Below, in pieces: positions 20,256-46,524 of a DNA stretch of 64,000 nt. Made by a program: the position numbers and the translations under genes. Numbering within the stretch: the stretch's first letter is position 1; every line of letters begins with the position of its first letter. Origin of the DNA: Hydrogenophaga flava NBRC 102514 (lineage in GTDB: Bacteria; Pseudomonadota; Gammaproteobacteria; Burkholderiales; Burkholderiaceae_C); contig NZ_BCTF01000011.1 in the NCBI RefSeq assembly GCF_001571145.1, positions 62,001 through 126,000 on the forward strand, given 5' to 3'. The notes beneath the pieces were generated by a model, which made no database searches, was not told the DNA's origin, and saw nothing but the letters and a program-made list of their open reading frames with translations.

Positions 20256-20939
20256 ATGTACGAACTGGGCGTTGTCTACCGCAACATCAACCGCGCCGAC
20301 CGCGCAGCCGCCGATGGCCTGGCCGCGCTGGGCTCGGCCACGGTGCACGAAGCCATGGGCCGCGTCGGCCTGCTCAAGCCCTACATGCGGCCGATCCAGA
20401 CCGGCGTGCAGGTCAGCGGCACGGCCGTGACCGTGCTGCTGCACCCCGGCGACAACTGGATGCTGCACGTGGCGGCCGAACAGATCCAGCCCGGCGACAT
20501 CGTGGTGGCGGCCATCACGGCCGAGTGCACCGACGGCTACTTCGGCGACCTGCTGGCCACCAGCTTCCAGGCCCGTGGTGCCCGCGCACTCATCATCGAC
20601 GCCGGCGTGCGCGACGTGAAGACGCTCAACGAGATGAACTTCCCGGTCTGGAGCAAGTGCATCTCCAGCAAGGGCTGCATCAAGGAAACCATCGGCTCGG
20701 TGAACATCCCCGTGGTCTGCGCCGGCATGCTGGTGACCCCGGGCGACGTGATCGTGGCCGACGACGACGGCGTGGTCTGCGTGCCCGCCGCCCGCGCGGT
20801 CGAAACCCTGGCCGCCGCGCAGAAGCGCGAGAGCTTCGAAGGCGAGAAGCGCGACAAGCTGGCCAGCGGCGTGCTGGGCCTGGACATGTACAAGATGCGC
20901 GAACCGCTGGCTGCCAAGGGCCTGCGCTATATCGACTGA
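20256..20939 (+). CDS. ligK: 4-carboxy-4-hydroxy-2-oxoadipate aldolase (LigK/PmdF)
   Basis: 227 residues, RraA-like class II aldolase. The signature region [22 protein letters not shown] contains the catalytic Arg-Asp pair, and [15 protein letters not shown] is typical. It splits 4-carboxy-4-hydroxy-2-oxoadipate into pyruvate and oxaloacetate and usually also decarboxylates oxaloacetate. It has a GAGGAGA ribosome site and lies 27 bases after ligJ. Confidence 0.94.
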
Positions 20940-20948
20940 GGAGACGCC

Positions 20949-23220
<2,272 letters not shown>

Positions 23221-29160: not shown

Positions 29161-30660
29161 TCAGCGCGCGCGCCATTGGGCGATCAGCGCCGACAGGCTG
29201 CCGGCATCGGCCGCCGTACCGTAGGTGTAGTGGTCGGGCCGCACGATGGCCGCATGGACGCCGTGGCGCGACATCCACGCAGCCACCACGCCTTCGGCTT
29301 CCGGCGTCCGGGCCAGGTCGACCAGCGTCAGGCCGGGTACACCGTCCAGCGGCAGCGTGCCATCGCCCACCAGGCGCCAGCCACGACCGGCGCGCTCGTC
29401 CATCAGTTCGCCCACCCCGTCGGCGGTCGCCATGCGGGGTTGCGGAAACAGCGTGCCCGCACCGGGCGTGGTGGTGACGAGTCCACCCACCAGCGGGGGC
29501 AGGATGTCCTGGCGCGGCGTGTCCCTGACCACACCGCCGCACTCGGCCAGCAGGCGTGCGTCGCGCTCGCGGGCCTTGGTCTCGTCGCGTTCGCAGATCA
29601 CGGCGCCGACCCCCTTGATGCGGCTGGTGAGCTCGCGCACATGGGCCTTGCGCTCGGTGCCATAGCTGTCCAGCAGCCGCTCCGCCGCTTCGCCCTGCAC
29701 CTGGCCCGACAGCACCGCCGCCAGCTTCCAGCCCAGGTTGGCCACATCGCGCACGCCCTGGCACATGCCCTGTCCCAGAAACGGTGGCTGCATGTGCGCC
29801 GCATCGCCGGCCAGGAACACGCGGCCCACGCGCCAGCGTTCGGCCACCAGCGCATGGAAGCGGTAGCTGGACTGGCGCCACAGCGTGCCGTCCTCCGGGC
29901 CGAGCCAGCGCGCGAGCAGCTGCCAGGTGCCTTCGGGCGTCGCGGCCTCTTTCGGGTCTTCGCCCGGCTGGAGGCTGATCTCCCAGCGGCGGTGATTGCC
30001 AGGGCCGATCACCAGGGAGCAGGGCCGCTGGGGCTCGCAGTACTGCACGCTGGTGGCCGGCAGCTTGGCCAGTCCACGCTCGTTGACCATCACGTCGACC
30101 ACCAGCCAGGGTTCGTCGAAACCGAGGTCCTCCAGCGCCACGCCCAGCTGGGCGCGCAGACCGCTGCTGCCGCCATCGGCGGCCAGGGCCCAGCGCGCGC
30201 GGACCGGTCGTCCGGCCACGGTGAGCGTCACGCCGTCGGCGTCCTGCGCCAGGCCGGTGCACTCCACGCCCAGCTCAACCGTCACGTTCGGCAGGCGGGC
30301 CACGCGTTCGCGCAGGATGCGTTCCACCGGCGGCTGGGTGAACACGATGGACGGCGTGTAGCCCTGGGGATACGGCGGATCGACCATGGTCATGCGGCGA
30401 ATCGGCTGGCCGTCCACCCCGTAGTAGACCGAGGGGGTGAAGGGCTCGCAGTGCCGCTGCACCGCGTCCACCACACCCAGTTGCTGGAACACCCGCATGA
30501 CCTCGTGGTCCAGCGCGATCGCGCGCGGGATCTCGTAGACGTCCTGCAGCCGGTCGCACACGTACACCGAATGACCCGCCTGGCCCAGCAGGGCCGCGGC
30601 CACCGCGCCGGCCGGCCCGTAGCCGACGATGGCCAGGTCGTAGACAGGCGCTTCGCTCAT
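29161..30660 (-). CDS. FAD-dependent aromatic hydroxylase (MhpA-like)
   Basis: 499 residues, class A flavoprotein monooxygenase. FAD motifs: GYGPAGAVAAALLGQAG near residue 14, a DG motif ADGGSSGLRAQLG near 172 and GDAAHMQPPFLGQGMCQG near 285. These match 3-(3-hydroxyphenyl)propionate/3-hydroxycinnamate hydroxylases. It hydroxylates an aromatic ring, creating the diol for the adjacent extradiol dioxygenase. ATG 30660 overlaps the stop of the FAH gene by one base (TGATG). Confidence 0.9.
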   Translation of the reverse strand: MSEAPVYDLAIVGYGPAGAVAAALLGQAGHSVYVCDRLQDVYEIPRAIALDHEVMRVFQQLGVVDAVQRHCEPFTPSVYYGVDGQPIRRMTMVDPPYPQGYTPSIVFTQPPVERILRERVARLPNVTVELGVECTGLAQDADGVTLTVAGRPVRARWALAADGGSSGLRAQLGVALEDLGFDEPWLVVDVMVNERGLAKLPATSVQYCEPQRPCSLVIGPGNHRRWEISLQPGEDPKEAATPEGTWQLLARWLGPEDGTLWRQSSYRFHALVAERWRVGRVFLAGDAAHMQPPFLGQGMCQGVRDVANLGWKLAAVLSGQVQGEAAERLLDSYGTERKAHVRELTSRIKGVGAVICERDETKARERDARLLAECGGVVRDTPRQDILPPLVGGLVTTTPGAGTLFPQPRMATADGVGELMDERAGRGWRLVGDGTLPLDGVPGLTLVDLARTPEAEGVVAAWMSRHGVHAAIVRPDHYTYGTAADAGSLSALIAQWRAR

Positions 30661-31502
30661 CAAGCCTCCGCCACGATCGGGTTGCTCAGCACGCCGATGC
30701 TTTCGATCTCGATCTCGATGGTGTCGCCCGCCTTCATCCACACCGGTGGCGTGCGCGCCTGGCCGACACCGGCGGGGGTGCCCATGATGAGGGCGTCGCC
30801 CGGCTCCAGCGTCATGCACTCCGAGAGCAGCGCAATGGTCTCCGCGACAGAGAAGATCATGTCGTTGGTGTTGGCGTCCTGCATGACCTGGCCGTTCAGG
30901 CGGCTCTGCAGGCGCAGACCGGTGGCGCCGGGCGCCAGTTCGTCGGCCGTGACCAGCACCGGACCGAAGCCGCCGGTGGCGTCGAAGTTCTTCCCGATGG
31001 TCCATTGCGGTGTGCGCTTCTGGTAGTCGCGCACCGACATGTCGTTGAAGCAGGTGTAGCCGAACACGTACTGCAGGGCGTCGGCCTGGCTCACGTGCCG
31101 GGGCACCCGCCGGCCGATCACCACCGCCAGTTCGGCCTCGTAGTCGAAGCGGCTCGACACCTTGGGCAGCACGCCCGGCTGGCCATGACCCATGAGCGAG
31201 CTTTTGCCGCGGTAGAAGAACCAGGGGTAGTCGGGCTTTTCGCGACCCCCTTCCTTGGCGTGGTCGAAATAGTTCAGGCCCAGGCAGATGGTCTTGCCGG
31301 GTTCGGGCACCAGGGGGGCGAACGACAGGCCGGCCAGCGGCAGGCGCGGGGCGTTCGACGCGATGGCGGCGCGGCCGGCGGCCATCAGGTCACGACCGGC
31401 TTCGAGTTCGGTGCGCAGATCGGCGGCGATGTCGATCGCGGCATCGCCGTCCACGACGGCCAGGCGGGGGCGGCCCTGTTGCAGGTAGGTGGTGAAACGC
31501 AT
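30660..31502 (-). CDS. Fumarylacetoacetate hydrolase family protein
   Basis: 280 residues with the FAH core KTICLGLNYFDHAKEGG, the metal-binding EAELAVVIG near residue 125, and GDALIMGTPAGVGQ. Relatives are 2-hydroxyhepta-2,4-dienedioate isomerases/hydratases, fumarylpyruvate hydrolases and 2-keto-pentenoate hydratases. Next to an extradiol dioxygenase it most likely hydrates or cleaves the ring-fission product. ATG 31502 starts MRFTTYL; a longer in-frame extension would run into the dioxygenase gene. Confidence 0.9.
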   Translation of the reverse strand: MRFTTYLQQGRPRLAVVDGDAAIDIAADLRTELEAGRDLMAAGRAAIASNAPRLPLAGLSFAPLVPEPGKTICLGLNYFDHAKEGGREKPDYPWFFYRGKSSLMGHGQPGVLPKVSSRFDYEAELAVVIGRRVPRHVSQADALQYVFGYTCFNDMSVRDYQKRTPQWTIGKNFDATGGFGPVLVTADELAPGATGLRLQSRLNGQVMQDANTNDMIFSVAETIALLSECMTLEPGDALIMGTPAGVGQARTPPVWMKAGDTIEIEIESIGVLSNPIVAEA

Positions 31503-31513
31503 GGGAAAAGTCC

Positions 31514-32419
31514 TCAGAGGTGGGAAGCAAAAACAACGGCGCGCTGCGCCGTCTTCAGGCGTGCGCTGGGCGGGGCGGAGATGCCCCACTGGTCCACCCG
31601 GCCAGGTGGCCAGGTCCAGTCCGACGGCTGACCGGGCCGGTAGGTGTGGTCGATCTGTTCGACCTCGGCCGTGTATTCGATGACGATGCCGAAGGGATCG
31701 ATGAAGTAGTTGAAGGCGTTGTCGCCCGGACCGTGCCGGCCCGGCCCCCATTCGATGGCGTGGCCGGCGTCCTTCATGCGGCCGCCACCGCGCATCACCG
31801 CGTCCAGCGACGGCATCAGGAAGGCGACGTGGTTGAGGGCGTCGTTGTCGCTGTCGCCCAGGGCGATGCTGTGGTGGTCCGCATCGCAGTTCATGAAGGC
31901 CATGATCCGCGTGCGGTCGGCTAGCACGAAGCCCAGCACCTGTTCCAGGAAGGCCTGGGTGGCCGCCACATCGTGGCTGTTGAGCACGGCATGGGCCAGG
32001 CGCTGCGGTTGGTCGGCGGGCGTGGGGTCGGTGGGCGTTCGCAGCGTGTCGCCGTGCACCACCTCGTAGCGGCGGCCATGGCCGTCGCGCACGATCAGGC
32101 GCCGGCCGCCGGCCGGGTCGGTCGCGGGGGCCTCGTCGTGTTCCACCTGCCCGCCTGCCTGGAGCGTGGCGGCCGCGATGGCTTGCAGGGACTCGGCGCT
32201 GCGCGCACGCAGGGTGACCTGTCTCAGCTGGGGCTCACCGGCTTGCTGGTGGAGCGCCAGCAGATGGTGGTCGGTGCCGCTGCCGCGCAGGTAGAGCACC
32301 CCGTCACCGCGTGCGGCCACCTCCAGCTGCCACACCTGGGTGTAGAAGGTTTCGGCGGCGCTCAGGTCGGGCACCGTCAGCGCCACGCTTCGCAGCGACT
32401 GGATCCAGGGCGATTTCAT
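31514..32419 (-). CDS. Type I extradiol ring-cleavage dioxygenase (vicinal oxygen chelate fold)
   Basis: 301 residues made of two VOC modules. Metal-ligand positions match catechol 2,3-dioxygenase and BphC: His143 (LAHAVL), His197 (LNHVAF) and Glu249 (VIEYT). The N-terminal module lacks ligands, as usual. It opens a catechol-type ring next to the diol, following the hydroxylase encoded downstream. ATG 32419 overlaps the amidohydrolase stop by 4 bases. Confidence 0.9.
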   Translation of the reverse strand: MKSPWIQSLRSVALTVPDLSAAETFYTQVWQLEVAARGDGVLYLRGSGTDHHLLALHQQAGEPQLRQVTLRARSAESLQAIAAATLQAGGQVEHDEAPATDPAGGRRLIVRDGHGRRYEVVHGDTLRTPTDPTPADQPQRLAHAVLNSHDVAATQAFLEQVLGFVLADRTRIMAFMNCDADHHSIALGDSDNDALNHVAFLMPSLDAVMRGGGRMKDAGHAIEWGPGRHGPGDNAFNYFIDPFGIVIEYTAEVEQIDHTYRPGQPSDWTWPPGRVDQWGISAPPSARLKTAQRAVVFASHL

Positions 32420-33477
32420 GAAGATTCCTTTGACAGAGTGAGGTACCGGCCGAGGAAGCGCTGCGCGTTCCCTAAGGCCAGTGCCTCGCGCGTGGCGGTG
32501 TCCAGGCCGGCCTCTGTCAGGCGGTCCAGTGGCCGGGGTTCGTGGAAGTTGAAGGGGTGGTCGGTGCCCAGCATCAGCGACTGGGCGCCGAAGCTGTGCA
32601 GCAGATGGCGCAGGGTGGGAGCGTCGAACACCAGGGTGTCGTAGAACAGCCGGGCGGCCTGTGCCCGCGGTGATTCGGGGATGGACTCGCGCAGCGCCGG
32701 GAACACCTCCCAGCCCTGCTGCAGACGGGGCAGCAGGGCCGAGAGCGTGCCCCCGCCATGGCTGAACGCCAGGCGCAGGTCCGGCAGGCGCTGCAGCAGC
32801 CCGCCGGTGATCACGGAGGCCGCGGCCAGGCCCACGTCGCCGGGGTAGGCCAGCACCTGCTGCAGCTGGGCCGGGCCCACCAGGCGGTCCATGCCCGTCG
32901 GCTTGAGCGCGTGCACGAAGACCGGCACATCCAGCGCGACACAGGCGGCAAAGAAGGGGTCGAAACGGGCATCGCCCACCGGCACACCGTTGACGTTGCT
33001 GCCGATCTCCACCCCCACCAGACCGAGCGCCTCCACCGCATGACGGAGTTCAGCGATTGCCGCGTCCACGTCCTGCAGCGGCACCGCGGCCAGGCCCAGC
33101 AGACGACCGCCCGAGTCGGCACAGATCGCCGTCGTCTGCTCGTTGAGGAAGCGGATCAGGCCCTGTGCGTCGCCCAGATCCAGCCAGTAGCTCAGCAGCT
33201 CGGGCATGGGCGATACCACCTGCATGGCCAGCTCCATGCGGTCCATGTCGGCCAGTCGGCGGGGGGCCGACCAGCAGCGCTCGTCCACCGTGCGGTAGTG
33301 CCGCCCGTTCACCAGCACGTGGCGGTGGCACAGGCCACGGGCGTCGGGCGCCTCGCCCGTGCTCGGCCAGGGCGAGGGCACGGTGCGACCCAGGTAGGCC
33401 GGGAAGCTGGCGGGCACGATGTGCGCGTGCACATCGATGCCGCAGCCACAGGGGTGCAGCGAGGCCACGTGGCTCAT
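32416..33477 (-). CDS. ACMSD-like amidohydrolase (decarboxylase/hydrolase)
   Basis: 353 residues, amidohydrolase-2 family. IDVHAHIVPASFPAYLG gives the HxH metal site near residue 17; VFVHALKP near 190, AFSHGGG near 245 and GTDHPFNF near 311 supply further ligands. Relatives decarboxylate 2-amino-3-carboxymuconate semialdehyde, resorcylates or hydroxyphthalates. Between Bug receptor and dioxygenase genes, a decarboxylation of an aromatic or ring-opened acid is likely. ATG 33477 overlaps the Bug stop (ATGA). Confidence 0.87.
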   Translation of the reverse strand: MSHVASLHPCGCGIDVHAHIVPASFPAYLGRTVPSPWPSTGEAPDARGLCHRHVLVNGRHYRTVDERCWSAPRRLADMDRMELAMQVVSPMPELLSYWLDLGDAQGLIRFLNEQTTAICADSGGRLLGLAAVPLQDVDAAIAELRHAVEALGLVGVEIGSNVNGVPVGDARFDPFFAACVALDVPVFVHALKPTGMDRLVGPAQLQQVLAYPGDVGLAAASVITGGLLQRLPDLRLAFSHGGGTLSALLPRLQQGWEVFPALRESIPESPRAQAARLFYDTLVFDAPTLRHLLHSFGAQSLMLGTDHPFNFHEPRPLDRLTEAGLDTATREALALGNAQRFLGRYLTLSKESS

Positions 33478-34451
33478 TCCGGCTGGATGCCCAGTGTTTT
33501 CACCAGGCCGGCCCAGCGCTCGCGCTCGGCGCGCAGGAAGGCCTCGAACTCGGTCACGGTCATCGACGCCTCGACCTGGGAGCCCAGGGCCTGCATGCGC
33601 TGCGCCACCTCGGGCTGTCGCAACACGGTTTCCAGGTCGCGGTTGACGCGGGCCACCACCTCGGGCGGCGTGCCGGCCGGTGCGAACAGACCGTTCCAGC
33701 CGGTGTACTCGAAGCCGGCAAAGGTCTCGGCCAGCGCAGGCACGTCGGGCATGTCCATCTGCCGTTTCGCCGTGCTCACCGCCAGCGGCCGGACCTGTCC
33801 GGATTTGATGAACGGCGTCAGTGCCGCGTCGGGCAGGCACACCAGTTGCACCCGGCCAGCGATCACGTCCTGCAGCGCATCGGCCGACTTCGTGTAGGGC
33901 ACGTGGTTGAACTTCGCGCCTGCCATGTGGGCCACGCTGTCGGCCAGCATGCCCGAGAAGGTCTTGGGCCCTTCGGTGGCGATGGTCAGCGTGCCGGGCT
34001 GGGCCTTGGCCATGGCCAGCACCTCGCCCAGGGAGCGGGCACCGAGTGCCGGGCTGGCGGCGATGACGAAGGGGCTGCGGCCGACCAGACGCACCGGCAC
34101 GAAGTCCTTCACAGGGTCGTAGGGCAGCGACTTGAAGGTGTACAGGTTGGTCACCATGGCGGCCGTGGTGGCGTAGTAGAAGCTGTAGCCGTCGGGTGCG
34201 GAGCGCGCGGCGGCCTGCGCACCGATCACGTTCTGTCCGCCGGCCCGGTTCTCGATCACCAGCGACTGGCCCCACAGCTTGCCCAGCTGTTCGGCCAGGT
34301 AGCGGGCCAGCACATCAGGCCCGGCGCCTGCGGGTTGCGAAAGGATCCATCGCACCGGGCGCTGGGGCCAGGTGGTCTGTGCCCAGACCCGTGAGAAGGG
34401 AGCGCTCATGGCCAGAACGGCCAGGGCGCGAATCGTGTCGCGACGCAGCAT
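33474..34451 (-). CDS. Bug-family tripartite tricarboxylate transporter receptor
   Basis: 325 residues; signal peptide to about VWA-QTTWP, Bug signature RWILSQPAGAGPD, and LPYDPVKDFVPVR. It is the first gene of the mhp-like operon, so it probably delivers the pathway substrate. GGAGACAACC lies before ATG 34451. It is divergent from a NahR-like LysR regulator over 92 bases that contain two perfect inverted repeats. Confidence 0.9.
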   Translation of the reverse strand: MLRRDTIRALAVLAMSAPFSRVWAQTTWPQRPVRWILSQPAGAGPDVLARYLAEQLGKLWGQSLVIENRAGGQNVIGAQAAARSAPDGYSFYYATTAAMVTNLYTFKSLPYDPVKDFVPVRLVGRSPFVIAASPALGARSLGEVLAMAKAQPGTLTIATEGPKTFSGMLADSVAHMAGAKFNHVPYTKSADALQDVIAGRVQLVCLPDAALTPFIKSGQVRPLAVSTAKRQMDMPDVPALAETFAGFEYTGWNGLFAPAGTPPEVVARVNRDLETVLRQPEVAQRMQALGSQVEASMTVTEFEAFLRAERERWAGLVKTLGIQPE

Positions 34452-35477: not shown

Positions 35478-36365
35478 TCAGCGCACGCGCACGCCCTGGG
35501 CCACCAGGGCCCGGTAGGCCGACGGCGCATTGCCGGTGCTGCGCTGGAAGAACTTGCTGAAATAGGCCGGGTCGTCGTAGCCCAGTTGCTGCGCCACCTC
35601 GGCCACGCTCTGGGAGGTGTAGGCCAGCAGGCGGCGGGCTTCGAGCATGCGGCGCTCGTTGAGCAGGTCCAGCGCCGACTGCCCGAGCACCGCGCGGCAG
35701 CTGCGGCTGAGGTGGTCGGGCGTCACCGACAGCGTCTCTGCGTAGAAGCCCAGCGGCTGGTGCTGGCGGTAATGCTGTTCCACCAGGGCCAGGTAGCGCT
35801 GCACCAGCGTGTCGCGTGCGCCTTGCGGGCGCGCCCGGTCAAAGGCCTCGCCATGCCCGCGGACGAACAGCACGGCCAGCAGCGTGGCGCAGGCCAGCAG
35901 CGCATGCACGCGCCCCGGGCGCTGCTGCCGGAACTCCGTGGCGATGCGCTGGAACAGGTCCTGACACTCCTGCGCCTGGGCGCTGTCGAGCGCCGGCAGC
36001 ACGAACGAGGCCTTCAGTTCGGTGCCGAGGAACTGCGCGTCGGCGAGCAGTTCGCGCAGCGTGCCCGTGGGCACCGTCACCTGATGGCCTTCGGTGTCGC
36101 GCGTGTACGCAAAGCCGTGTACCGAGCCCGGTGCCAGCATCAGCAGCGCGGGTGCCGACACCTCGAACTCGCGCCCGTCGATGGTGCCGCGCACACTGCC
36201 CCGGTGCAGGAACTGGAACTGGTGCAGTCCCTCGTGGCGGTGTGCCGGAATGGTCCAGTCCATCTCCTGGCCGCGCACGGCCACCGATTCGTAGTGCAGG
36301 CAGTCGTCGGGTTGGTCGTGGCGGACTTCCTTGAAGGGAACGAGCAGCAGCGGTGCAGGCTTCAT
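35478..36365 (-). CDS. AraC-family regulator with cupin sensor domain
   Basis: 295 residues. The N-terminal cupin-like domain (HRHEGLHQFQFLHRG near residue 42) is followed by two helix-turn-helix motifs at the C-terminus (LSVTPDHLSRSCRAVLG near 213; SVAEVAQQLGYDDPAYFSKFF near 253). It resembles 4-hydroxybenzoate- or hydroxyphenylacetate-responsive regulators. It is divergent from the ThDP-aldehyde dehydrogenase fusion gene over 111 bases and probably controls it. Confidence 0.9.
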   Translation of the reverse strand: MKPAPLLLVPFKEVRHDQPDDCLHYESVAVRGQEMDWTIPAHRHEGLHQFQFLHRGSVRGTIDGREFEVSAPALLMLAPGSVHGFAYTRDTEGHQVTVPTGTLRELLADAQFLGTELKASFVLPALDSAQAQECQDLFQRIATEFRQQRPGRVHALLACATLLAVLFVRGHGEAFDRARPQGARDTLVQRYLALVEQHYRQHQPLGFYAETLSVTPDHLSRSCRAVLGQSALDLLNERRMLEARRLLAYTSQSVAEVAQQLGYDDPAYFSKFFQRSTGNAPSAYRALVAQGVRVR

Positions 36366-36476
36366 CGGTATGGGCGAAAGGAGGTGCCGGAAAAGTACAA
36401 GCATGCGCCGAATCGTCCATCGCCGCACCGGGGGAAAACACGCACCATCGCGCTCCACCTGCTGTCCTGTCCGACC

Positions 36477-39400
36477 ATGACCCGAATGCCCGACCCCTCT
36501 GTACCTGTCCCCGCACCGACGCGTGCGGCGCCACTGCGACTGACCGGCGCCCAGGCGCTGGTGCAGGTGCTGCTGGCCGAAGGCGTTGACACGGTGTTCG
36601 GCATCGTGGGGGGCAAGCTCTCGCCGCTGTTCCATGCGCTCAGCCGCGAGCCGCGCATCCGCTTCATCGGGGTGCGCCACGAGGCCGCAGGCCCCATGAT
36701 GGCCGCCGCCGTGCACGCCGGCACCGGCCGGCTGGCGGTGGCGGTGGGCGAACTCGGCCCGGGCGGTCTGAATCTGGCGTCGGGTCTGGGCGTGGCGCTG
36801 AACAACCACCTGCCGCTGCTGGCCATCACCACCAACCAGCACCGCGCTGCGTCCTACCCGCACGTGGGCGTGTTCATGGACCTCGATACGCGCGCCGTCA
36901 CCGCGCCGCTGACCAAATGGAATGCGGTGGTGAACGACGCGCGCCGCATGCCCGAACTGGCGCGCCGCGCGATCCGCGAGGCCCTGAGCGGCCGGCCCGG
37001 CCCGGTGCACCTGGACATCCCGCAGGACGTGCTGGGCGAGGTGCAGGCGTTTGCCGCCGACGAGTTCGCACTGCCGCCCGCGCGCTACCGCGTGACCGAA
37101 CCGCCGCGGCCGAGCGCACGCTCGGTGGCCGCGGCCGTGGCGCTGCTGCGCGCGGCCCGCCGGCCGCTGATCGTGGGCGGTGGCGGTGTGGTGGCGGCGG
37201 GCGCGGTGGCCGAGTTGCGCACGCTCGCGCAACGGCTGAACGCGCCCGTGCTGCCGACCCAGATGGCGCTGGGCCTGGTGCCCAGCGACAGCCCGCACTT
37301 CGTCGGCCATGGCGGCATCATCGCGGGCGATGCGGTGCGCCACGCCTTCGAGCGGGCCGATGTGGTGCTCAGCGTGGGCTGCCGCTGGTCGTCGTGGATG
37401 TGGGACGAGCGCGGCGCGCTGGCGCGGCGGCACCACCGGGTGATCAACATCAACATCGACCCCTCGGCGCTGGGCCAGGCCGTGATGCACGAGGTGGCCA
37501 TGCAGGCCGACGCTGGCGAGGCCCTGCGCGATCTGCTGTCGGCGCTGGGTGACGCGCCAGTACCTGCTGGCGAATGGCTGGCCGAGGTGCGGGCCGTGCG
37601 CAGGCGCTACGAACACAAGCTCGCGCTGATGGCGGCCGACACGGAAGAGACCATGCACCCGGCGGCGCTGGCCAAGGCCGTGGCCGACGCGCTGCCGGAC
37701 GATGCGCTGGCGGTCTACGACGGCGGACACACCACCTTCTGGAGCAACGACTTCACGCAGGTGCGCGAGGTGCGCACCCGCTTTCACGAGCCCGGCATGA
37801 GCCACCTGGGCTTCGGCCTGCCGGCTGCGATCGCGCTCAAGAGCCAGTTCCCCCGGCAACCGGTTTTCAACATCACCGGCGACGGCGCCTTCGGCTTCAC
37901 CCTCAACGAACTCGACACCGCGCGGCGCCATGGCTTGCCGGTGATCACCATCGTGCACAACAACGCGGCCTGGGGCGTGATCCGCATGGGCCAGAAGGCG
38001 GGCATGAATTTCGAGATGGGCACCGCCCTGGAGGACACCGACTACGCCGCCATTGCGCGGGGCTTCGGTTGCCACGGGGAGGTCGTCACACGCGCTGGCG
38101 ATGTGGCGGCCGCTCTGCAGCGGGCGATCGCGTCGGGCTTGCCCGCCGTGCTCGACTGCCGCACCAAGTTCCTGCCGCACCCCGCGGTGGGTCAGTTTGT
38201 CAGCATGAACAAGTACGGCTTCCACTCGCTCTCGCGGGTGGAGATGCCCAAGGAGCAACGCATGAACGAGATCACGATGCTGGTGGGGGGCGAGCGCGTC
38301 GCCGCGGCCAGCGGCCAGACCTTTGAACGCCGCAACCCACTGGACGGCAGCGTGGCCACCCGCGCGCCGGCCGCGAGCACCGCAGACGCCCGGGCCGCAG
38401 TGGACGCGGCGGCCGCCGCCTTCGGTGAATGGTCCCGTCTCGGGCCGGGCGCACGCCGCGCGCTGCTGCTCAAGGCCGCCGCGGAGCTGGAGGCGCGCAC
38501 GCCGCGCTTCATCGAGACCATGGCGGCCGAGACCGGTGCAGCGGCGCCCTGGGCCGGCTTCAACGTGCACCTGGCGGCTGGGATGCTGCAGGAGGCGGCG
38601 GCCATCACCACCCAGGTCAGTGGCGAGGTGATTCCGTCCGACGTGCCGGGCAGCCTGGCCATGGCGGTGCGCCAGCCGGCCGGTGTGGTGCTGGGCATTG
38701 CGCCCTGGAATGCGCCGGTGATCCTGGCGGTGCGGGCCATTGCCACCCCGCTGGCCTGTGGCAACACGGTGGTGCTCAAGGGATCCGAACTGTGCCCGGC
38801 CACGCACGGCCTGATCGTCGAGGCGCTGCAGGCCGCCGGCCTGCCGCCGGGCGCGGTCAACTTCGTCACCAACGCCCCCGCCGATGCCGCCGAGGTGGTG
38901 GAAGCCATGGTGGCCCACCCGGCCGTGCGCCGCGTCAACTTCACCGGTTCCACGCGCGTGGGCCGCCTGCTGGCGGTCACCTGCGCCCAGCACCTGAAGC
39001 CGGTGGTGCTGGAGCTGGGCGGCAAGGCGCCGTTCCTGGTGCTCGACGACGCCGATCTGGACGCCGCCGTGGATGGGGCCATCTTCGGTGCCTTCGCCAA
39101 CTCGGGACAGATCTGCATGTCCACCGAGCGCCTGGTGGTCGACGAACGGGTGGCCGACACCTTTGTGGCCAAGCTGGCGGCCCGTGCCGTGGGGCTGCCG
39201 CTGGGCGATCCGCGCAAGGGGCCGGTGGTGCTGGGTTCGGTGGTGGACATGGGCACGGTCGAACGCTGCAATGCGCTGATCGACGACGCGCTGGCCAAGG
39301 GCGCCACGCTGGTCTGCGGCGGAAAGGCCGAGAACACGCTGATGCCGGCCACCGTGCTGGACCACGTGACCCGCGACATGCGCATCTACCATGAGGAGAG

Positions 39401-39713
39401 CTTCGGCCCTGTCAAGCCGGTGGTGCGCGTGGCCGGTGTGGAGGCCGCCGTGGCCTGCGCCAACGACAACCCCTACGGCCTGTCGGCGGCCGTGTTCGGC
39501 CGCGACGTGGCGCGTGCACTGGAGGTGGCCCGGCGCATCGAGTCCGGCATCTGCCACGTCAACGGGCCCACGGTGCACGACGAAGCCCAGATGCCGTTCG
39601 GCGGTGTCAAGGACTCGGGCCACGGCCGCTTCGGCGGCAAGGCCGGCATCGACGCCTTCACCGAACTGCGCTGGATCACCGTGCAGACCACGCCACGCCA
39701 CTACCCTTTCTGA
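36477..39713 (+). CDS. Fused ThDP-dependent 2-oxoacid decarboxylase-like enzyme and aromatic aldehyde dehydrogenase
   Basis: One continuous frame of 1078 residues. Residues 1 to about 582 form a complete ThDP enzyme of the acetolactate synthase/benzoylformate decarboxylase superfamily: catalytic Glu69 (RHEAAG), middle domain, and ThDP/Mg motif GDG 468-470 to NN 495-496. From Met596 a full aldehyde dehydrogenase follows, with PWNAPV, general-base Glu846 (LELGG) and nucleophile Cys880 (GQICMSTER), closest in motif to vanillin/salicylaldehyde dehydrogenases. The simplest reaction is aryl-2-oxoacid to aldehyde to aromatic acid, as MdlC plus MdlD do in mandelate breakdown. No stop separates the halves. 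AAGGAG at 38250-38255 lies 6 bases before Met596, so the dehydrogenase may also be made alone. ATG 36477 was chosen because upstream sequence runs antisense through the AraC gene. Confidence 0.88.
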   Translation: MTRMPDPSVPVPAPTRAAPLRLTGAQALVQVLLAEGVDTVFGIVGGKLSPLFHALSREPRIRFIGVRHEAAGPMMAAAVHAGTGRLAVAVGELGPGGLNLASGLGVALNNHLPLLAITTNQHRAASYPHVGVFMDLDTRAVTAPLTKWNAVVNDARRMPELARRAIREALSGRPGPVHLDIPQDVLGEVQAFAADEFALPPARYRVTEPPRPSARSVAAAVALLRAARRPLIVGGGGVVAAGAVAELRTLAQRLNAPVLPTQMALGLVPSDSPHFVGHGGIIAGDAVRHAFERADVVLSVGCRWSSWMWDERGALARRHHRVININIDPSALGQAVMHEVAMQADAGEALRDLLSALGDAPVPAGEWLAEVRAVRRRYEHKLALMAADTEETMHPAALAKAVADALPDDALAVYDGGHTTFWSNDFTQVREVRTRFHEPGMSHLGFGLPAAIALKSQFPRQPVFNITGDGAFGFTLNELDTARRHGLPVITIVHNNAAWGVIRMGQKAGMNFEMGTALEDTDYAAIARGFGCHGEVVTRAGDVAAALQRAIASGLPAVLDCRTKFLPHPAVGQFVSMNKYGFHSLSRVEMPKEQRMNEITMLVGGERVAAASGQTFERRNPLDGSVATRAPAASTADARAAVDAAAAAFGEWSRLGPGARRALLLKAAAELEARTPRFIETMAAETGAAAPWAGFNVHLAAGMLQEAAAITTQVSGEVIPSDVPGSLAMAVRQPAGVVLGIAPWNAPVILAVRAIATPLACGNTVVLKGSELCPATHGLIVEALQAAGLPPGAVNFVTNAPADAAEVVEAMVAHPAVRRVNFTGSTRVGRLLAVTCAQHLKPVVLELGGKAPFLVLDDADLDAAVDGAIFGAFANSGQICMSTERLVVDERVADTFVAKLAARAVGLPLGDPRKGPVVLGSVVDMGTVERCNALIDDALAKGATLVCGGKAENTLMPATVLDHVTRDMRIYHEESFGPVKPVVRVAGVEAAVACANDNPYGLSAAVFGRDVARALEVARRIESGICHVNGPTVHDEAQMPFGGVKDSGHGRFGGKAGIDAFTELRWITVQTTPRHYPF
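38250..38264 (+). promoter_or_regulatory. Internal ribosome binding site and start within the fusion gene
   Basis: AAGGAG (38250-38255), a 6-base spacer, and ATG (38262-38264) sit exactly at the junction of the two enzyme domains. This is an ideal initiation signal and is unexpected inside a coding sequence unless the halves were, or still are, translated separately. Confidence 0.6.
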
Positions 39714-39738: not shown

Positions 39739-40719
39739 ATGCACCGCAGAACCCTTTTGCGCGCCAGCGCCGCCTTCGGAGGCCTGGCCACCACCGGCTG
39801 GGCGGCCATGGCCCAGAGCAACCCGAACGTGTTCGTGTGGTCCGGCTTTCCGGCCGGCGGGCTGGGTGACCAGGTGACCCGGCCGATGCTGGAGCAGATG
39901 CGCGGCAAGTACCCGCAGAACTTCGTCTACGACAGCAAACCCGGCGCTGGCGGGCGCATTGCCGCCGAGTTCGTCAAGCGCTCGGCGCCCGATGGCGGCA
40001 ATCTGCTGCAGTGCCCCAGCTCCACCATCACGCTGCACCCGCACGTGTTCAAGAAGCTGCCCTACGACACCCTGTCCGACTTCGTGCCCATCGCCAGCCA
40101 GTGCTCGTACACGGCGGTGTTCACCGCCGGACCGGGGCTGCCGGCCGAGATCCGCACCGCCGCCGACTACCTCAAGTGGGCACAGGCCCACGCCGGCCAG
40201 GCCAACTACGGCGTACCGGCCATGGGCTCCACGCTGCACCTGGCTGGTGCCATGCTGGGCAAACAGGCCGGCGTGGACCTGCGCGCCGTGCCCTACAAGG
40301 GCGGTGCGCCGTTGCTCAACGACCTGCTGGGTGGGCAGATCCCGGTGAGCTTCAACGTGGTGAGCGAGGTGCTGCCGCACATCCGCTCGGGCAAGCTGCG
40401 CGCGCTGGCCGTGACCGCACCCACGCGCTGGAAGGCCTTGCCCGATGTGCCGACGCTCACCGAACTGGGCTTCAAGGAAGTGGCGTTTGTCGACTGGCTG
40501 GGCTGGTACGGCCCCGCCGGCACACCCGCGGCCAAGGTGGCGGCGCTCAACACCGCCGTGGGGGCGGCGCTGGACACACCAGCCATGGGGGAGGTGCTGG
40601 GCAAGCTGGGCCTGGAGGTCATGAAGATGGCACCGGAACCATTCGCAGCGGCGGTGAAAGAGAATCACGCCTTCTGGCAACGGGTGGTCAAGACCACCGG
40701 TTTCACCCCGGAGGACTGA
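39739..40719 (+). CDS. Bug-family tripartite tricarboxylate transporter receptor
   Basis: 326 residues with an export signal containing an Arg pair (MHRRTLLRASAAFGG), cleaved near AMA-QSNP. The Bug core is FPAGGLGDQVTRPML and LPYDTLSDFVPIA. It starts 25 bases after the fusion gene with an AGAGGAG ribosome site. A ligand such as an aryl-2-oxo or hydroxy acid would fit the neighbouring enzyme; this is inference. Confidence 0.88.
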   Translation: MHRRTLLRASAAFGGLATTGWAAMAQSNPNVFVWSGFPAGGLGDQVTRPMLEQMRGKYPQNFVYDSKPGAGGRIAAEFVKRSAPDGGNLLQCPSSTITLHPHVFKKLPYDTLSDFVPIASQCSYTAVFTAGPGLPAEIRTAADYLKWAQAHAGQANYGVPAMGSTLHLAGAMLGKQAGVDLRAVPYKGGAPLLNDLLGGQIPVSFNVVSEVLPHIRSGKLRALAVTAPTRWKALPDVPTLTELGFKEVAFVDWLGWYGPAGTPAAKVAALNTAVGAALDTPAMGEVLGKLGLEVMKMAPEPFAAAVKENHAFWQRVVKTTGFTPED

Positions 40720-41145
40720 ATGGCATCACTCACACTGGAACAGGCCCAGCGCATCATCGCCGGCGCTCTGGCCCGCTCGCGCGAAAAGGGTTTCAAGCCC
40801 ATGGGCATCGCCGTGGTGGACGAGGGCGGCAACCTCAAGGCCTTTGTGCGGGAAGACGGTGCCAGCATGTTCCGCTTCGAGATCGCCCAGGCCAAGGCCT
40901 GGGGGGCGGTGGGCATGGGGGTGTCCAGCCGGGTGCTGGGCCAGCGGGCCCAGGACAACCCCAACTTCTTCGTCTCGCTGGCCGCCACCTCCCAGGGGCG
41001 CTTTCTGCCGCAGACGGGCGCGGTGCTGATCCGCGATGGCGCAGGAAATTTGCTGGGTGCGGTCGGCGCCAGTGGCGGCATCGGGGACGAGGACGAGCTC
41101 ATCTGCGCCGCCGGGGTCGAGGCGGCCGGGCTGGTCAGCGGCTGA
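40720..41145 (+). CDS. GlcG/HbpS-like small protein (DUF336)
   Basis: 141 residues of the GlcG/HbpS fold: GIAVVDEGGNLKAFVRED, FRFEIAQAKAWGAVGMG and GAVGASGGIGDEDELICAAG. Family members bind haem or cobalamin, or occur without known role beside glycolate and aromatic operons. The ATG directly abuts the Bug stop (TGAATG), so the two are translationally coupled. Confidence 0.88.
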   Translation: MASLTLEQAQRIIAGALARSREKGFKPMGIAVVDEGGNLKAFVREDGASMFRFEIAQAKAWGAVGMGVSSRVLGQRAQDNPNFFVSLAATSQGRFLPQTGAVLIRDGAGNLLGAVGASGGIGDEDELICAAGVEAAGLVSG

Positions 41146-41176: not shown

Positions 41177-41962
41177 TCAGCCCTGGTTGAAGTGCGCGGG
41201 GCGCTTGTCCAGCCGGGCGCGCATGCCCTCGTGCTTGTCGGGGCTGGCGAACGCGGTCTGGAAGGCGTTGCGCTCGTACTCCAGCCCGGCCGACAGCGGC
41301 GTCTCCATGGCCATCAGCACCGACTCCTTGATCAGGCGCAGCGCCACCGCCGGCAGCGCGCACAGCTGCTGTGCCACCGCCAGCGCGCGGGCTTCCACCG
41401 CCTCGTTGTCCAGCACCTCGGCCACCAGGCCGATGCGCGCGGCGGTCTCGGCGTCGATGGGCTCACCGAGCAGCAGCAGCTTCATCGCGCCGTGTTTGCC
41501 CAGCGCCCGCGTGAGACGCTGCGTCGCGCCGCCGCCGGGCATGATGCCCACCTTCACCTCGGGCTGACCGAAGCGCGCGCTGCGCCCGGCCAGAATCAGG
41601 TCGGCGTGCAGCGCCAGTTCACAGCCGCCGCCCAGCGCGTGCCCGCGCACCGCCGCGATCACCGGCTTCTTGCAGGCCGCGATCGCGCCCCAGAGCAGGT
41701 CGTGGCGGCGCTGCAGCAGGTCGATGGGGCCGGCGTCCACGTACTCGCCCAGGTCGGCGCCGGCGCAGAAGGCCCGTTCACCACCAGCGAGCACGACCAC
41801 GCGCACCGCCGGGTCGGCGTCCAGGCGCCGGAAGGCCTCGGCCAGCGCCCGGCGCAGCGCCAGGTTGAGCGCGTTGAGCACCTCGGGGCGGTGGATGCGC
41901 AGCAGCACTACGCCGTCCTGTAGGCGTTCCTCGATCAGCGGGCTGTCGGTGACGGCGCTCAT
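41177..41962 (-). CDS. Enoyl-CoA hydratase
   Basis: 261 residues, crotonase fold. Both catalytic glutamates of true hydratases are present: GGGCELA near residue 110 and GQPEVKVGIMPGGG near 130. It adds water to a 2-enoyl-CoA. It overlaps the upstream crotonase by 4 bases and is the last gene of the operon that begins with the Bug gene at 48358. Confidence 0.92.
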   Translation of the reverse strand: MSAVTDSPLIEERLQDGVVLLRIHRPEVLNALNLALRRALAEAFRRLDADPAVRVVVLAGGERAFCAGADLGEYVDAGPIDLLQRRHDLLWGAIAACKKPVIAAVRGHALGGGCELALHADLILAGRSARFGQPEVKVGIMPGGGATQRLTRALGKHGAMKLLLLGEPIDAETAARIGLVAEVLDNEAVEARALAVAQQLCALPAVALRLIKESVLMAMETPLSAGLEYERNAFQTAFASPDKHEGMRARLDKRPAHFNQG

Positions 41963-42765
41963 GCGGCACCCCCGCTGAACACCGGCGCGCGCTTCTCGAA
42001 GAAGGCGGCCACGGCTTCGGCGTGGTCGGCCGTGTGGTGCGCCAGGCCCTGCAGCCGGCCGGCGGCGTCCAGCGCCTCGTCCAGGGTGCCGGTGCGCGCC
42101 TGCTGCAGCAGCTGTTTGGTCCAGCGCAGCACCTGGGGCGGGTTGGCAGCAATGCGGCCGGCCAATTTCAGGGCCTCGGGCAAGAGCTCGTCGGGCGCGA
42201 CCACGCGCGAGACCAGGCCGATGCGTTGCGCCTCGTCGGCGTCAATGGTGTCGCCGGTCAGCGCCAGCTCGGCCGCCTTGGCGTGACCGACCACGCGCGG
42301 CAGCAGCCAGCAGCCACCATCGCCGGGAATGATGCCGACCTTCACGAAGCTCTCTGCGAAGCGCGCGGTGGTGGATGCGATGCGCAGGTCGCACATGCAG
42401 GCCAGGTCGTTGCCAGCGCCGATGGCTGGGCCATTGACCGCCGCGATCAGCGGCACCTGCAGCCGCGCCAGCGCGCGCGGGATGCGCTGGATGCCCTGGC
42501 GGTAGCGCTCGGTGATCTCGTCGGGGGTGCCGGCGAACATGCCCGTGCGGTCGCGCATCTCGGCCACGTTGCCGCCCGAGCAGAAAGCGCTGCCGGCGCC
42601 GGTGAGCACGGCGGCGCGCACCGAGAGGTCCGCATTGAGTTTGTCCACCAGCGATTCAAAGGCGGCGAACATCGCTTCCCCACTGAGCGCGTTGCGTGTG
42701 TCGGGGCGGTTGATCGTGATGAGCGCGATGTGATCGCGGCGGGTGATGAGCAGGGGTTCGTTCAT
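41959..42765 (-). CDS. Crotonase-family protein resembling PaaG isomerase
   Basis: 268 residues, crotonase fold, but the two hydratase glutamates are replaced: GAGNDLA instead of GGGxELA, and [22 protein letters not shown] where the second Glu would be. The pattern GG-WLLPR after IP and the general layout resemble PaaG, the ring 1,2-epoxyphenylacetyl-CoA isomerase, and delta-isomerases. It is unlikely to be a standard hydratase. It overlaps thiolase and hydratase genes by 4 bases each. Confidence 0.85.
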
Positions 42766-43976
42766 GCGTTGTCTCCCAAGTGTTCAATCGCCATGGCCAC
42801 GCCCTGGCCGACGCCCACGCACATGGTGACCAGGCCGTAGCGCCCGCCTTTGCGCCGCAGTTGCCGCGCAGCGGTGAGCACCAGGCGTGCGCCGCTCATG
42901 CCCAGCGGATGGCCGAAGGCGATGGCACCGCCATTGGGGTTCACGTGTGGCGCGTCGTCCGGCAGGCCCAGTGCGCGGGTCACCGCCAGCCCTTGTGCGG
43001 CGAATGCCTCGTTGAGTTCGATCACGTCGAAGTCGCTCACGCGCAGGCCGGTCTGCGCGAGCAGTTTGTGCACCGCGGGCACCGGGCCGAAGCCCATCAC
43101 CCGCGGCGCGACGCCGGCGCTGGCATAGCCGACGATGCGCGCCAGCGGACGCAGGCCGTGGCGCGACACCGCAGCTTCATTGGCCAGCAGCAGCGCCGCC
43201 GCGCCGTCGTTCACGCCCGAGGAGTTGCCGGCGGTCACGCTGCCGTCCTTGCGGAAGGCGGGCTTGAGCGCGGCCAGGCTTTCGGCGGTGGTGTCGGTGC
43301 GCGGGTGCTCGTCTTCGGTGACCTGGGTGACGGCGCCCTTGCGGCCGGGCACGTCGACGGGGGTGATCTCTTGCGCCAGCACACCCGAGCGCATCGCGGC
43401 CGCCGCACGCTGCTGGCTGCGCAGCGCGAACGCATCCTGGTCAGCGCGCGAGATGCCGTGTTCGCGCGCCACGTTCTCGGCCGTCTCGCCCATGGCGTCG
43501 GTGCCGTGCAGCTGTTCCATGCGCGGGTTCACGAAGCGCCAGCCGATGGTGGAGTCGTGGACCTCGGCGTGGCGCGAAAACGCGGCCGTGGGCTTGGGCA
43601 TCACCAGCGGCGCGCGGCTCATGCTCTCGACGCCGCCGGCGATGGCCAGTTGCGCCTGGCCCGCGTGCAGCGCACGCGCCGCCTGCGCCACGGCTTCGAG
43701 GCCTGATCCGCAGAGCCGGTTCACCGTCACCGCCGGCACCTCCACCGGCAGGCCCGCAAGCAGCGTGCACATGCGCGCCACGTTGCGGTTGTCCTCGCCG
43801 GCCTGGTTGACGCAGCCGTAGACCAGCTCGTCGATCAGCGCCGGGTCCAGCGATGGATGCCGCGCCATCAGCGCGCGGATCGGGATCGCACCCAGGTCGT
43901 CGGTGCGCACCGACGACAGCGCACCACCGTATCGCCCGATGGGCGTGCGCACGCCGTCACAGAGAAAGGCGTTCAT
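42762..43976 (-). CDS. pcaF: 3-oxoadipyl-CoA/acetyl-CoA thiolase (PcaF/PaaJ-like)
   Basis: 404 residues. Nucleophile Cys89 in [11 protein letters not shown], the [10 protein letters not shown] histidine and the late TMCVGVGQG cysteine are all present. The segments [16 protein letters not shown] and [12 protein letters not shown] are typical of the beta-ketoadipyl-CoA thiolase branch. It cleaves 3-oxoadipyl-CoA or a related 3-oxoacyl-CoA to acetyl-CoA and a shorter acyl-CoA. ATG 43976 starts [14 protein letters not shown]. Confidence 0.9.
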
Positions 43977-43978
43977 GT

Positions 43979-44821
43979 TCACAGGCCCAGCACGCGTTCG
44001 GCGTTGCCGTGCATGATTTTTTCCATCACCTCGGGCTTGTAGCCCAGCTCGTCCCACTCGCGCAGGATGCGTTCATACGGCAGGCTGGGGTAGTCGCTGC
44101 CGAACATGATCTTGTCCTGCAGGCGGCCGCGGATGTCGACCTTGAGGTTGCCCGGGAAGTGCTTGGGCGCCCAGCCCGACATCTCCCAGTACACGTTGCC
44201 CTTGTGCAGCGCGACGGCCGTGGTCTCGTCGACCCAGGGCCAGCCGGGATGGGCCATGATGATCTTCAGCTGAGGGAAGTCGGCCGCGAGCTGGTCGATG
44301 TGTTCCGGGTGGGCGTGGCGCACCAGGGCGCCGTTGCCGCCGGGCATGCCGGCGCCCATGCCGGTGGTGCCCACGTCCACCATCACCGCCGCGCCCATCG
44401 CGTTGATCTCTTCGAACAGCGGGTAGTAGCGCCTATCGCTCACGGCGAAGTGCTGCATGATGGGGTGGAAGTGGAAGCCGATGAAGCCCAGCTCCTTGAT
44501 GGCCTTGCGGGCCTGGATCATCGCGATCTCGCCCTTGGCCGGCTCCACCGCGCCCCAGCACTGGATCACGCGCTGCGGGTTGCGTTTCCACATGCCGTGC
44601 ACGTACTCGTTGGTGCAGGGCGGGGCGGCCACCGTGGTATCCAGATCGAGCGCGACGAGGCAGGCCTCGACGCCCGCGCCGGTGAACTCTGCTATCACGT
44701 CTTCTTCGCTCTTGCCCACCCAGTCGCGCTTCCAGTAGCGGGCCAGTTCGGCCGGGTAGGGGCCCTGGGATTCGATCCAGGTGGGGGTGCCGGGGTAGCA
44801 GTGCAGGTCGATGATGCGCAT
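43979..44821 (-). CDS. Amidohydrolase-2 family (resorcylate decarboxylase-like) protein
   Basis: 280 residues. Motifs: DLHCYPG at the start (one canonical His of HxH is replaced by Tyr), [12 protein letters not shown] near 138, [12 protein letters not shown] near 210 and [11 protein letters not shown] near 247. It resembles metal-dependent nonoxidative decarboxylases and hydrolases. In an aryl-CoA operon it may decarboxylate or hydrolyse a ring acid. It lies between ligase (23 bases upstream) and thiolase (2 bases downstream). Confidence 0.85.
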
Positions 44822-44844
44822 GGTGTGTCTCTTGTTTGTGTGGT

Positions 44845-46506
44845 TCAGTGAGCGGCGGCTGCGGCCTGTTCGTCCTGAAGCTTCTTCGCCACCAGTTCGC
44901 CCAGGGCTTTCTTGGACACCTTGCCGAAGGTGGAGACCGGGAAGTCGGGCAGGATTTCCAGCCGCTCGGGCAGCTTGAACTTGGCGATTTCCTTGGTCAG
45001 CAGAAAGCCGACCAGCTCCTTGAGGTGCAGCTTCTGATGCGGCTTGAGGATCACGAAGGCGCACATCTTTTCGCCCATCGCGGCGTCGGGCATGGGCACG
45101 CAGGCCACGTTCTGCACCGCCGGGTGCATGAGGATCAGGTTCTCCACTTCTTCGGCGCTGATCTTTTCGCCGCCGCGGTTGATCAGGTCTTTCTTGCGGC
45201 CCTCGACGATGTAGTTGCCGCTGGGGTGCTTGCGCATCAGGTCGCCGGAGCGGTAGAAGCCCTCGGGCGTGAACTGGCGCGCGTTGTATTCGGGCACGCC
45301 GTAGTAGCCGCGCAGCGTGTAGGGGCCGCGCACCGTGAACTCGCCCACCTCGCCGTCGGGTACCTCGCGCCCGTCGTCGTCGAGCAGCAGCACCTCGTCG
45401 TCCGGGCAGACCGGGCGGCCGCAGGTCTCCAGCTTGACCTCTTCGGGGTCGCTGGCGCGCACGAACATCAGCGTGCCTTCGGACATGCCGAAGTTCTCCT
45501 GCACGAACACGCCGGGGATCAGCGTACGCGTCTTCGCGCGCACCTCGGGCTGCATGCGCTGGCCACCGCTCTGGATCAGCTTCAGGCTCGACAGGTTGAA
45601 GTTCTCGACTGCCGGGTCGTTGATGAGGCGGATCAGCAGCGCGGGCACGACCTTGAGGTGCGTGACCTTGTGCTTCTCGATCAGCGCGAACATCTCGGCC
45701 GGGCGGGTGCTGCCGTGCAGGACCACCTTGGCGCCCTTGAACAGAAAGCCCTGGATGCCCGGGCAGGCCAGCGGCAGGTTGTGCGCGATGGGCAGCACCA
45801 GCAGCAGCACCGAGTCGGGCGAGATCTCGCAGACCTCGGCCGCCACCTTGGAGTTGTAGGCGTAGTCGTTGTTGGTGCGCGGGATCAGCTTGGGGATGCC
45901 GGTGGTGCCGCCCGAGAGCTGGAAGATGCAGGGGTCGGTCGGGTCGATCTGGATATCGCTCAGGCGCGAGTCGGGCAGCTTGGCGGGCTTGGCGATCAGC
46001 TCGCGCAGCGAGACCTCGCCCGCACCGGCGTTGCCCAGCACGATGCGGAACTTGAGCGACGGGTTTTCGTTCTGCACACGGGTGATGACCGGCGCGAAAG
46101 CGAAGTCACCCGCCGTGTCGGGGTAGACCGCGGTGGTGGCGCCCGAGAGCTGCACGAACTGGCTGATCTCTGCATAGCGGTGCGTGACCAGGGCCGCGAT
46201 CGGGATGCAGCCGATCTTCTGCAGCGCGAAGTACAGCACCACGAACTCGTGCACGTTGGGCAGCGTGGGCACCACACGGTCCAGTGGCTGCAGGCCCAGG
46301 TCAAGCAGGTTGAGCGCGAGGTTGCTGCTCACCCGGTCCAGCTCGGCGTAGGTGTAGACCGTGTCGCCGTCGATCAGCGCGACGCGGTCGGCGTAACGCT
46401 GGAACACCTCGGCGAACTCCTGCGCCAGCGAGCGGTCCTGCCAGTAGCCTTTGGCGCGGTAGCGCGCGGCGAACTCGGGGGGGAAGGGAACGAATCCTTC
46501 GAGCAT
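44845..46506 (-). CDS. AMP-dependent aryl acid ligase (2,3-dihydroxybenzoate-AMP ligase-like)
   Basis: 553 residues, ANL superfamily. The ATP loop QLSGGTTGIPKLIPRTNNDY is near residue 188, NFGMSEGTLMF near 335, YRSGDLMRKHPSG near 415 and the catalytic Lys segment STFGKVSKKALG near 528. Sequence style resembles EntE/DhbE and salicylate- or hydroxybenzoate-activating ligases. With no carrier-protein gene nearby, it probably makes an aryl-CoA that enters the downstream beta-oxidation-like steps. Confidence 0.9.
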   Translation of the reverse strand: MLEGFVPFPPEFAARYRAKGYWQDRSLAQEFAEVFQRYADRVALIDGDTVYTYAELDRVSSNLALNLLDLGLQPLDRVVPTLPNVHEFVVLYFALQKIGCIPIAALVTHRYAEISQFVQLSGATTAVYPDTAGDFAFAPVITRVQNENPSLKFRIVLGNAGAGEVSLRELIAKPAKLPDSRLSDIQIDPTDPCIFQLSGGTTGIPKLIPRTNNDYAYNSKVAAEVCEISPDSVLLLVLPIAHNLPLACPGIQGFLFKGAKVVLHGSTRPAEMFALIEKHKVTHLKVVPALLIRLINDPAVENFNLSSLKLIQSGGQRMQPEVRAKTRTLIPGVFVQENFGMSEGTLMFVRASDPEEVKLETCGRPVCPDDEVLLLDDDGREVPDGEVGEFTVRGPYTLRGYYGVPEYNARQFTPEGFYRSGDLMRKHPSGNYIVEGRKKDLINRGGEKISAEEVENLILMHPAVQNVACVPMPDAAMGEKMCAFVILKPHQKLHLKELVGFLLTKEIAKFKLPERLEILPDFPVSTFGKVSKKALGELVAKKLQDEQAAAAAH

Positions 46507-46524
46507 GGAAGTCTCCTCGGTGTG

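Follow-up and report, generated by a model that had tools for sequence, protein, structure and literature searches.

The stretch of DNA considered here (64,000 nucleotides, hereafter the window) comes from the genome of Hydrogenophaga flava NBRC 102514, a member of the Burkholderiales, and corresponds to positions 62,001 to 126,000 of contig NZ_BCTF01000011.1, read on the forward strand. It contains a real fusion gene, at positions 36477-39713 of the forward strand, in which a thiamine diphosphate (ThDP)-dependent enzyme and an aldehyde dehydrogenase (ALDH) are joined in a single polypeptide. ThDP enzymes and ALDHs are each already known, as are fusions of enzymes for consecutive pathway steps; no natural ThDP-ALDH fusion appears among the literature matches listed, which cover the open-licence text of PubMed Central.

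Structure of the fusion gene

The gene consists of a single open frame of 1078 residues, with its sole stop codon at the end of the translation and none in the inter-domain stretch. The ThDP half (residues 1-588, positions 36477-38240) was delineated from Pfam, NCBIfam and solved relatives and comprises the domains TPP_enzyme_N (residues 23-127), TPP_enzyme_M (217-353) and TPP_enzyme_C (415-561), whereas the ALDH half, of the salicylaldehyde/vanillin dehydrogenase type (positions 38262-39713), comprises an Aldedh domain (611-1067); all four exceed their cut-offs, PF00171 reaching 488.2 bits for a cut-off of 23. The three TPP_enzyme domains, together with the catalytic Glu69 and the GDG...NN stretch 468-496, place the first half in the ThDP-dependent (TPP enzyme) superfamily, and PF00171 together with Cys880 and Glu846 places the second in the aldehyde dehydrogenase superfamily. 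These residues occupy exactly the positions assigned to them in a preliminary description of the locus, made from the sequence alone, which had also recognized a complete natural in-frame fusion; the single frame, the two sets of domains and the recurrence of the fusion in 13 genomes bear this out. Both halves display fewer nonsynonymous than synonymous changes (dN < dS) in 8/8 pairwise comparisons with the window's gene.

The structure model of the full-length protein has a mean confidence (pLDDT) of 77.8 and a predicted template modelling score (pTM) of 0.52, the pLDDT falling below 50 at residues 573-595 in the linker region; with these residues at low confidence, the model lends no support to a fixed channel for the direct aldehyde transfer envisaged in the preliminary description. 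The corresponding fold search gave only ALDH entries among the matches listed.

Linker and possible internal translation start

The two halves are connected by the peptide EMPKEQR (38241-38261, forward strand), which, compared with the 12 other fused genes and with the upstream regions of stand-alone ALDHs, is equivalent to the leader of a former ALDH gene. Within the open frame, it harbours a Shine-Dalgarno motif AAGGAG (38250-38255), with a duplex energy of -7.7 kcal/mol, 6 nt ahead of an internal ATG (38262-38264), which matches in position the start codons of stand-alone ALDH homologues and is a candidate start for a free ALDH of 483 amino acids. The junction DNA (38250-38264) reads AAGGAGCAACGCATG in the window and AAGGAGAACACCATG in Ramlibacter paludis (L040) and Ottowia thiooxydans (L043), and many stand-alone ALDH homologues possess AAGGAGAACNCCATG, or a near-identical sequence, at the same place. 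Most ThDP orthologues devoid of an ALDH end at most ~20 codons past a motif resembling MN(R/K)(Y/F)GF..L, and the fused genes have 8-13 codons between a conserved (T/S)R and the ATG of the ALDH (TTG in L128, L129 and L167). The preliminary description had seen here a short linker without a stop; the lack of a stop holds, but the linker is what was once the ribosome-binding site and start of the ALDH gene, now translated.

The anti-Shine-Dalgarno energy at the junction is -6.4 or lower in 10/13 fused genes (8/9 of those first collected and 2/4 of those added later). By way of control, the nine fused genes first collected have a median of -2.4 at their remaining in-frame ATGs, with 18/260 at -6 or stronger, and 77 stand-alone ALDH starts used for comparison have a median of -7.4. 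Within the window's gene, 39/1067 codon positions are no weaker than the junction; the energy alone is therefore not unique and what counts is its place at the homologous ALDH start. Both the Shine-Dalgarno motif and the ATG are intact in 7 of the 13 fused genes, including that of the window. Because the linker corresponds to the translated Shine-Dalgarno motif and start codon of a former ALDH gene, the full-length fusion and a free ALDH may both be made from one gene. A fused integron cassette was considered as a precedent and rejected, the Shine-Dalgarno motif lying upstream of the cassette and not at its joint in that report (PMC4670013).

The gene's own ATG at 36477 lacks a Shine-Dalgarno motif (+1.5), and the ATGs at or near that start in L128, L129, L043, L146 and L167 range from +1.2 to -2.9; candidate first start codons in L038, L040 and L149 have a strong motif (-9.5). 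In the region 36395-36500, where no such motif precedes the start of the fusion gene, a leaderless transcript is possible.

Distribution of the fusion

Uninterrupted ThDP-ALDH frames occur in at least 13 genomes, a lower bound because the scan of 84,980 species genomes covered the best 80 of 595 relatives, and the single frame is kept between genera. The first nine comprise the window's own genome (L001), L128 (G027), L129 (G024), L133 (G171), a Burkholderiales metagenome-assembled genome (MAG; L038), a Ramlibacter MAG (L039), Ramlibacter paludis, a Rubrivivax MAG (L041) and Ottowia thiooxydans, to which L146 (G1585), L147 (G1614), L149 (G1569) and L167 (G1634) were added later; R. paludis and O. 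thiooxydans are among the isolates. Depending on the group, the fusion was found in 3/67 genomes of the window's genus, 1/1 of the genus of G171, 6/60 around R. paludis, 2/29 around Ottowia and 1/81 around the Rubrivivax MAG, and none of 72,556 plasmid records carried 80% of it in one place (E 1e-100). The ThDP family is itself rare, with 8/399 genomes of the taxonomic family and 3/399 of the order (E 1e-150), 1/369 of the class and 1/398 of the phylum (E 1e-130), counts which include the window's own genome each time and rest on at most three scored candidates per genome.

In four relatives, the ThDP and ALDH genes are adjacent but unfused. Ramlibacter rhizophilus (L042) and L169 (G1731) keep the frame of the ALDH, with one in-frame TGA located 21 and 15 nt, respectively, before the ALDH start. 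The two genes occupy different frames in Caldimonas tepidiphila (L088), where the stop overlaps the ATG, and in L192 (G1575). Seventeen further ThDP orthologues have no ALDH of the same family within flanks of ~1.2 to 9 kb.

The ThDP half

The best NCBIfam match of the ThDP half is PRK08199, with 336.7 bits for a cut-off of 539, and no cut-off is reached among the best 25 of 51 models; the acetolactate synthase model gives 318.2 (cut-off 538.35) and the pyruvate oxidase model 273 (cut-off 637.85). The benzoylformate decarboxylase model NF005485 (cut-off 493) is not among these best 25, and the annotated MdlC of L143, used as a control, scores 831.7 on the MdlC model and shares 23% identity with the ThDP half. 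Orthology with MdlC is ruled out by this identity and by a best score (336.7) below 493, so that the mandelate-type character proposed previously stands as a two-step analogy and fails as membership of the MdlC family.

The solved relatives retrieved by sequence are acetolactate synthase (ALS), pyruvate oxidase (POX) and BbmA; the literature matches for BbmA were unrelated. Sequence and fold matches alike point to the acetolactate synthase/pyruvate oxidase/2-hydroxyacyl lyase group, which matches the half over its whole length with the catalytic Glu and the GDG...NN motif aligned, but from which it differs in reaching no cut-off. Modelled by itself, the ThDP half has poor confidence (pLDDT 65.6) and its fold matches are tied, so that this model decides no function. 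By its sequence, the ThDP half is thus best regarded as an unnamed subfamily nearest to acetolactate synthase and pyruvate oxidase, distinct from MdlC.

The ALDH half

The aromatic nature of the ALDH, as proposed previously, agrees with its nearest solved relatives, all of them aromatic ALDHs: the salicylaldehyde dehydrogenase 6qhn (2.4e-190), the vanillin dehydrogenase 9ihb (3.1e-188) and the salicylaldehyde dehydrogenase NahF 4jz6 (1.6e-167), the next match being at 1.4e-96. Structure alignments give 61% identity to 6qhn, solved with protocatechuic acid, and 51% to 4jz6; none of the NCBIfam equivalogs among the best 25 models passes its cut-off. These three enzymes belong to the same ALDH family as the fused half but consist of chains of 466-500 residues, with no ThDP domain listed.

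MdlD is the ALDH partner of MdlC in the mandelate pathway. An MdlC-like gene immediately precedes a member of the same ALDH family in 21/77 ALDH loci, and these tandems, in which 22-119 nt separate the MdlC stop from the ALDH match, represent a second, separate instance of two such enzymes being paired. The Burkholderiales pairs, such as that of the Paraburkholderia sprentiae plasmid pl2WSM5005, whose ALDH is 71% identical to the fused half, have the same gene order as the fusion but differ from it in that all 21 are unfused, 7 of them with both genes in one frame. The characterized pair BzfA/BzfC of Pseudomonas sp. LLC-1 likewise combines a ThDP decarboxylase step with an aromatic ALDH step, BzfC converting vanillin and syringaldehyde to the acids, with a proposed role in benzaldehyde oxidation, according to that study (PMC7760541). 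Unlike the fusion, BzfA and BzfC are separate proteins, and the benzoylformate decarboxylase family is only 23% identical to the ThDP half, the MdlC of L143 serving as proxy.

Evolution of the pairing and fate of the candidate internal start

In a tree of ThDP genes (35 rows, rooted by a Rhizobium plasmid gene on a long branch), the fused state changes 5 times on the best topology, 4 of these changes being forced by well-supported branches, and the presence of an ALDH next door changes 8 times. It follows from the forced changes that the fused state arose or disappeared repeatedly. In the ALDH tree of 31 rows, the 13 fused and 4 adjacent copies nevertheless group together as a single clade (95/93), and the first 11 of these copies do likewise in a tree of 105 rows (SH-aLRT 97); a single fusion event without loss is ruled out on the ThDP tree even so. 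The likeliest history would be one pairing followed by repeated fusion, splitting or ALDH loss. An ancestral tandem would have consisted of a gene for a ThDP-dependent 2-oxo-acid decarboxylase and, downstream of it in that frame, an aromatic ALDH gene; the intervening stop codon would then have been lost, turning the Shine-Dalgarno motif and ATG of the ALDH gene into a linker. L130 and L131 are nested among the fused genes but lack the ALDH, their ThDP stop being followed at once by a Bug gene; the second half may have been lost cleanly here.

Seven fused genomes (L001, L043, L040, L039, L041, L147 and L167) have no second ALDH of at least 70% identity, the next copy of L041 being 62% identical, and six others (L038, L128, L129, L133, L146 and L149) possess one. 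Junction signals counted as intact (an ATG and an energy of -6 or stronger) occur in 6/7 genomes without and 1/6 with a second ALDH (Fisher one-sided p 0.025), the pattern and the cut-off having been drawn from the first nine genomes. Three of the four later genomes agree, L149 (-5.6) barely so, and L167 disagrees; phylogenetically independent pairs give 2-3 for and 0 against (p 0.25-0.5), and several of the fused genomes are MAGs, whose assemblies may lack a second ALDH present in the organism. That selection would maintain the internal start to provide free ALDH alongside the fusion, and that this start would decay where a further gene encodes the enzyme, is accordingly a lead rather than a result, and an idea we hold as tentative and somewhat doubtful.

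Genomic neighbourhood

The fusion gene is flanked by a divergent AraC-family regulator (35478-36404, reverse strand, Pfam HTH_18 and AraC_binding, start codon uncertain) and is followed, on the forward strand, by a Bug/TctC solute receptor 25 nt downstream (39739-40719, Pfam TctC) and an HbpS-like protein (40720-41145, Pfam HbpS-like). A putative ring-cleavage operon (29161-34451, reverse strand), identified by Pfam and by an NCBIfam hydroxylase subfamily above cut-off, contains an FAD aromatic hydroxylase, an FAH hydrolase, a VOC/dioxygenase-superfamily protein, an Amidohydro_2 protein and a Bug protein. Among 31 ThDP loci, whose flanks differ in length, a gene best matching the window's Bug was found in 30, a loose count since such genomes abound in Bug genes; the HbpS-like gene occurs in 24 and at least three of the four ring-cleavage enzymes in 13 (8/13 fused, 5/18 others), the window being included in each case. 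An AraC homologue occurs in 21/31, the window's own copy being uncounted, hidden by a long overlapping frame. The AraC and Bug genes, previously taken to make the fusion a self-contained unit, are indeed conserved, but the unit also includes the HbpS-like gene and often the ring-cleavage genes.

Other aromatic genes occur in the window. On the forward strand, the region 20256-23220 encodes protocatechuate 4,5-cleavage enzymes (a LigK-type aldolase, LigA and LigB above NCBIfam cut-offs), flanked by genes at 19182-20228 and 23231-24181; the products of 20949-21884 and 23231-24181 resemble LigI and LigC, respectively, by eye, with no model over cut-off. A link between the fusion and this set (19.2-24.2 kb) was rejected and its proximity taken as coincidence, no dioxygenase-subunit homologues being found near the ThDP gene in the 31 loci, within flanks of ~0.2 to 10 kb that began at 26001 in the window and left its own copies outside. 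A gallate dioxygenase above cut-off (9398-10708, forward strand) matches LigB-like and LigA-like models in its N- and C-terminal parts. On the reverse strand, a CoA-pathway cluster (41177-47298) contains two genes that resemble enoyl-CoA hydratases by eye, a 3-oxoadipyl-CoA thiolase above its cut-off and a dihydroxybenzoyl-AMP-ligase-like enzyme below cut-off; homologues of its short-chain dehydrogenase/reductase (SDR), AMP-ligase and thiolase also follow the ThDP cassette in L128, L130 and L131.

Proposed function and alternatives

We consider it probable that the locus represents a conserved bifunctional gene of the Burkholderiales, converting an aromatic 2-oxo acid to the aldehyde and then to the aromatic acid, which feeds the neighbouring ring-cleavage operon. 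The 1078-residue product would most likely decarboxylate a 2-oxo acid of the aroylformate type, and its ALDH half would oxidize the resulting aldehyde, free ALDH probably being produced as well by initiation at the signal kept in the junction. Hydroxylation and ring cleavage of the acid would then fall to the neighbouring operon, the Bug receptor would bring the substrate in and the AraC regulator would sense it. Isatinate would be another possible substrate; the word was absent from the literature matches listed.

Several observations weigh against this proposal. Decarboxylation is a tentative assignment, because the ThDP half is closer to synthases, oxidases and lyases than to the known aroylformate decarboxylases. 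No neighbouring gene is diagnostic of the substrate, 17 of the 34 ThDP orthologues in the tree have no adjacent ALDH, and a fusion repeatedly gained or lost may confer little advantage. In 6/13 fused genes the signals of the internal start have decayed, through the TTG codon in L128, L129 and L167 and through a weak Shine-Dalgarno motif in L133 (-1.0), L146 (-3.7) and L149 (-5.6). Finally, the 77 loci of the MdlC count stem from the best 80 of 595 relatives of a full-length fusion query, which may favour ThDP-bearing loci, and 7 of them are loci of the window's own ThDP family.

The ThDP half could instead be a C-C lyase of the benzaldehyde-lyase or 2-hydroxyacyl-CoA-lyase type, releasing from an aromatic acyloin or 2-hydroxyacyl-CoA the aldehyde oxidized by the ALDH half, but such lyases come after acetolactate synthase and pyruvate oxidase among the sequence matches, and the occurrence of MdlC-type 2-oxo-acid decarboxylases as partners of this ALDH family in 21/77 loci also makes this unlikely, if still worth keeping in mind. 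A more improbable view holds the long frame to be largely a relic, with initiation mainly at the internal ATG, so that the fusion would be minor and mostly the free ALDH would matter; the contrast between the two starts (+1.5 for the first, -7.7 for the internal one) speaks for it, and the constraint on the ThDP half in 8/8 comparisons, the frame kept open in 13 genomes and the strong candidate first starts of L038, L040 and L149 speak against it. As to the loss of a stop codon by sequencing or assembly error, the 5.15-Mb genome of the window is a draft in 82 contigs, but the same type of fusion occurs in 12 other genomes from several genera, some of them isolates; these refute such an error, the chance of which is now negligible, and they answer the previous wish to see positions 38200-38270 resequenced.

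Significance

Taken as a bifunctional gene for consecutive steps, the fusion offers a clean test for the channelling of a reactive aldehyde. Several evolutionary states are at hand, from ThDP genes alone, through adjacent genes with an in-frame stop or in another frame, to fused genes with an intact or decayed internal start, and the system also allows one to test how neighbouring genes become a fusion gene. In addition, the ThDP half is possibly a new aromatic decarboxylase or lyase.

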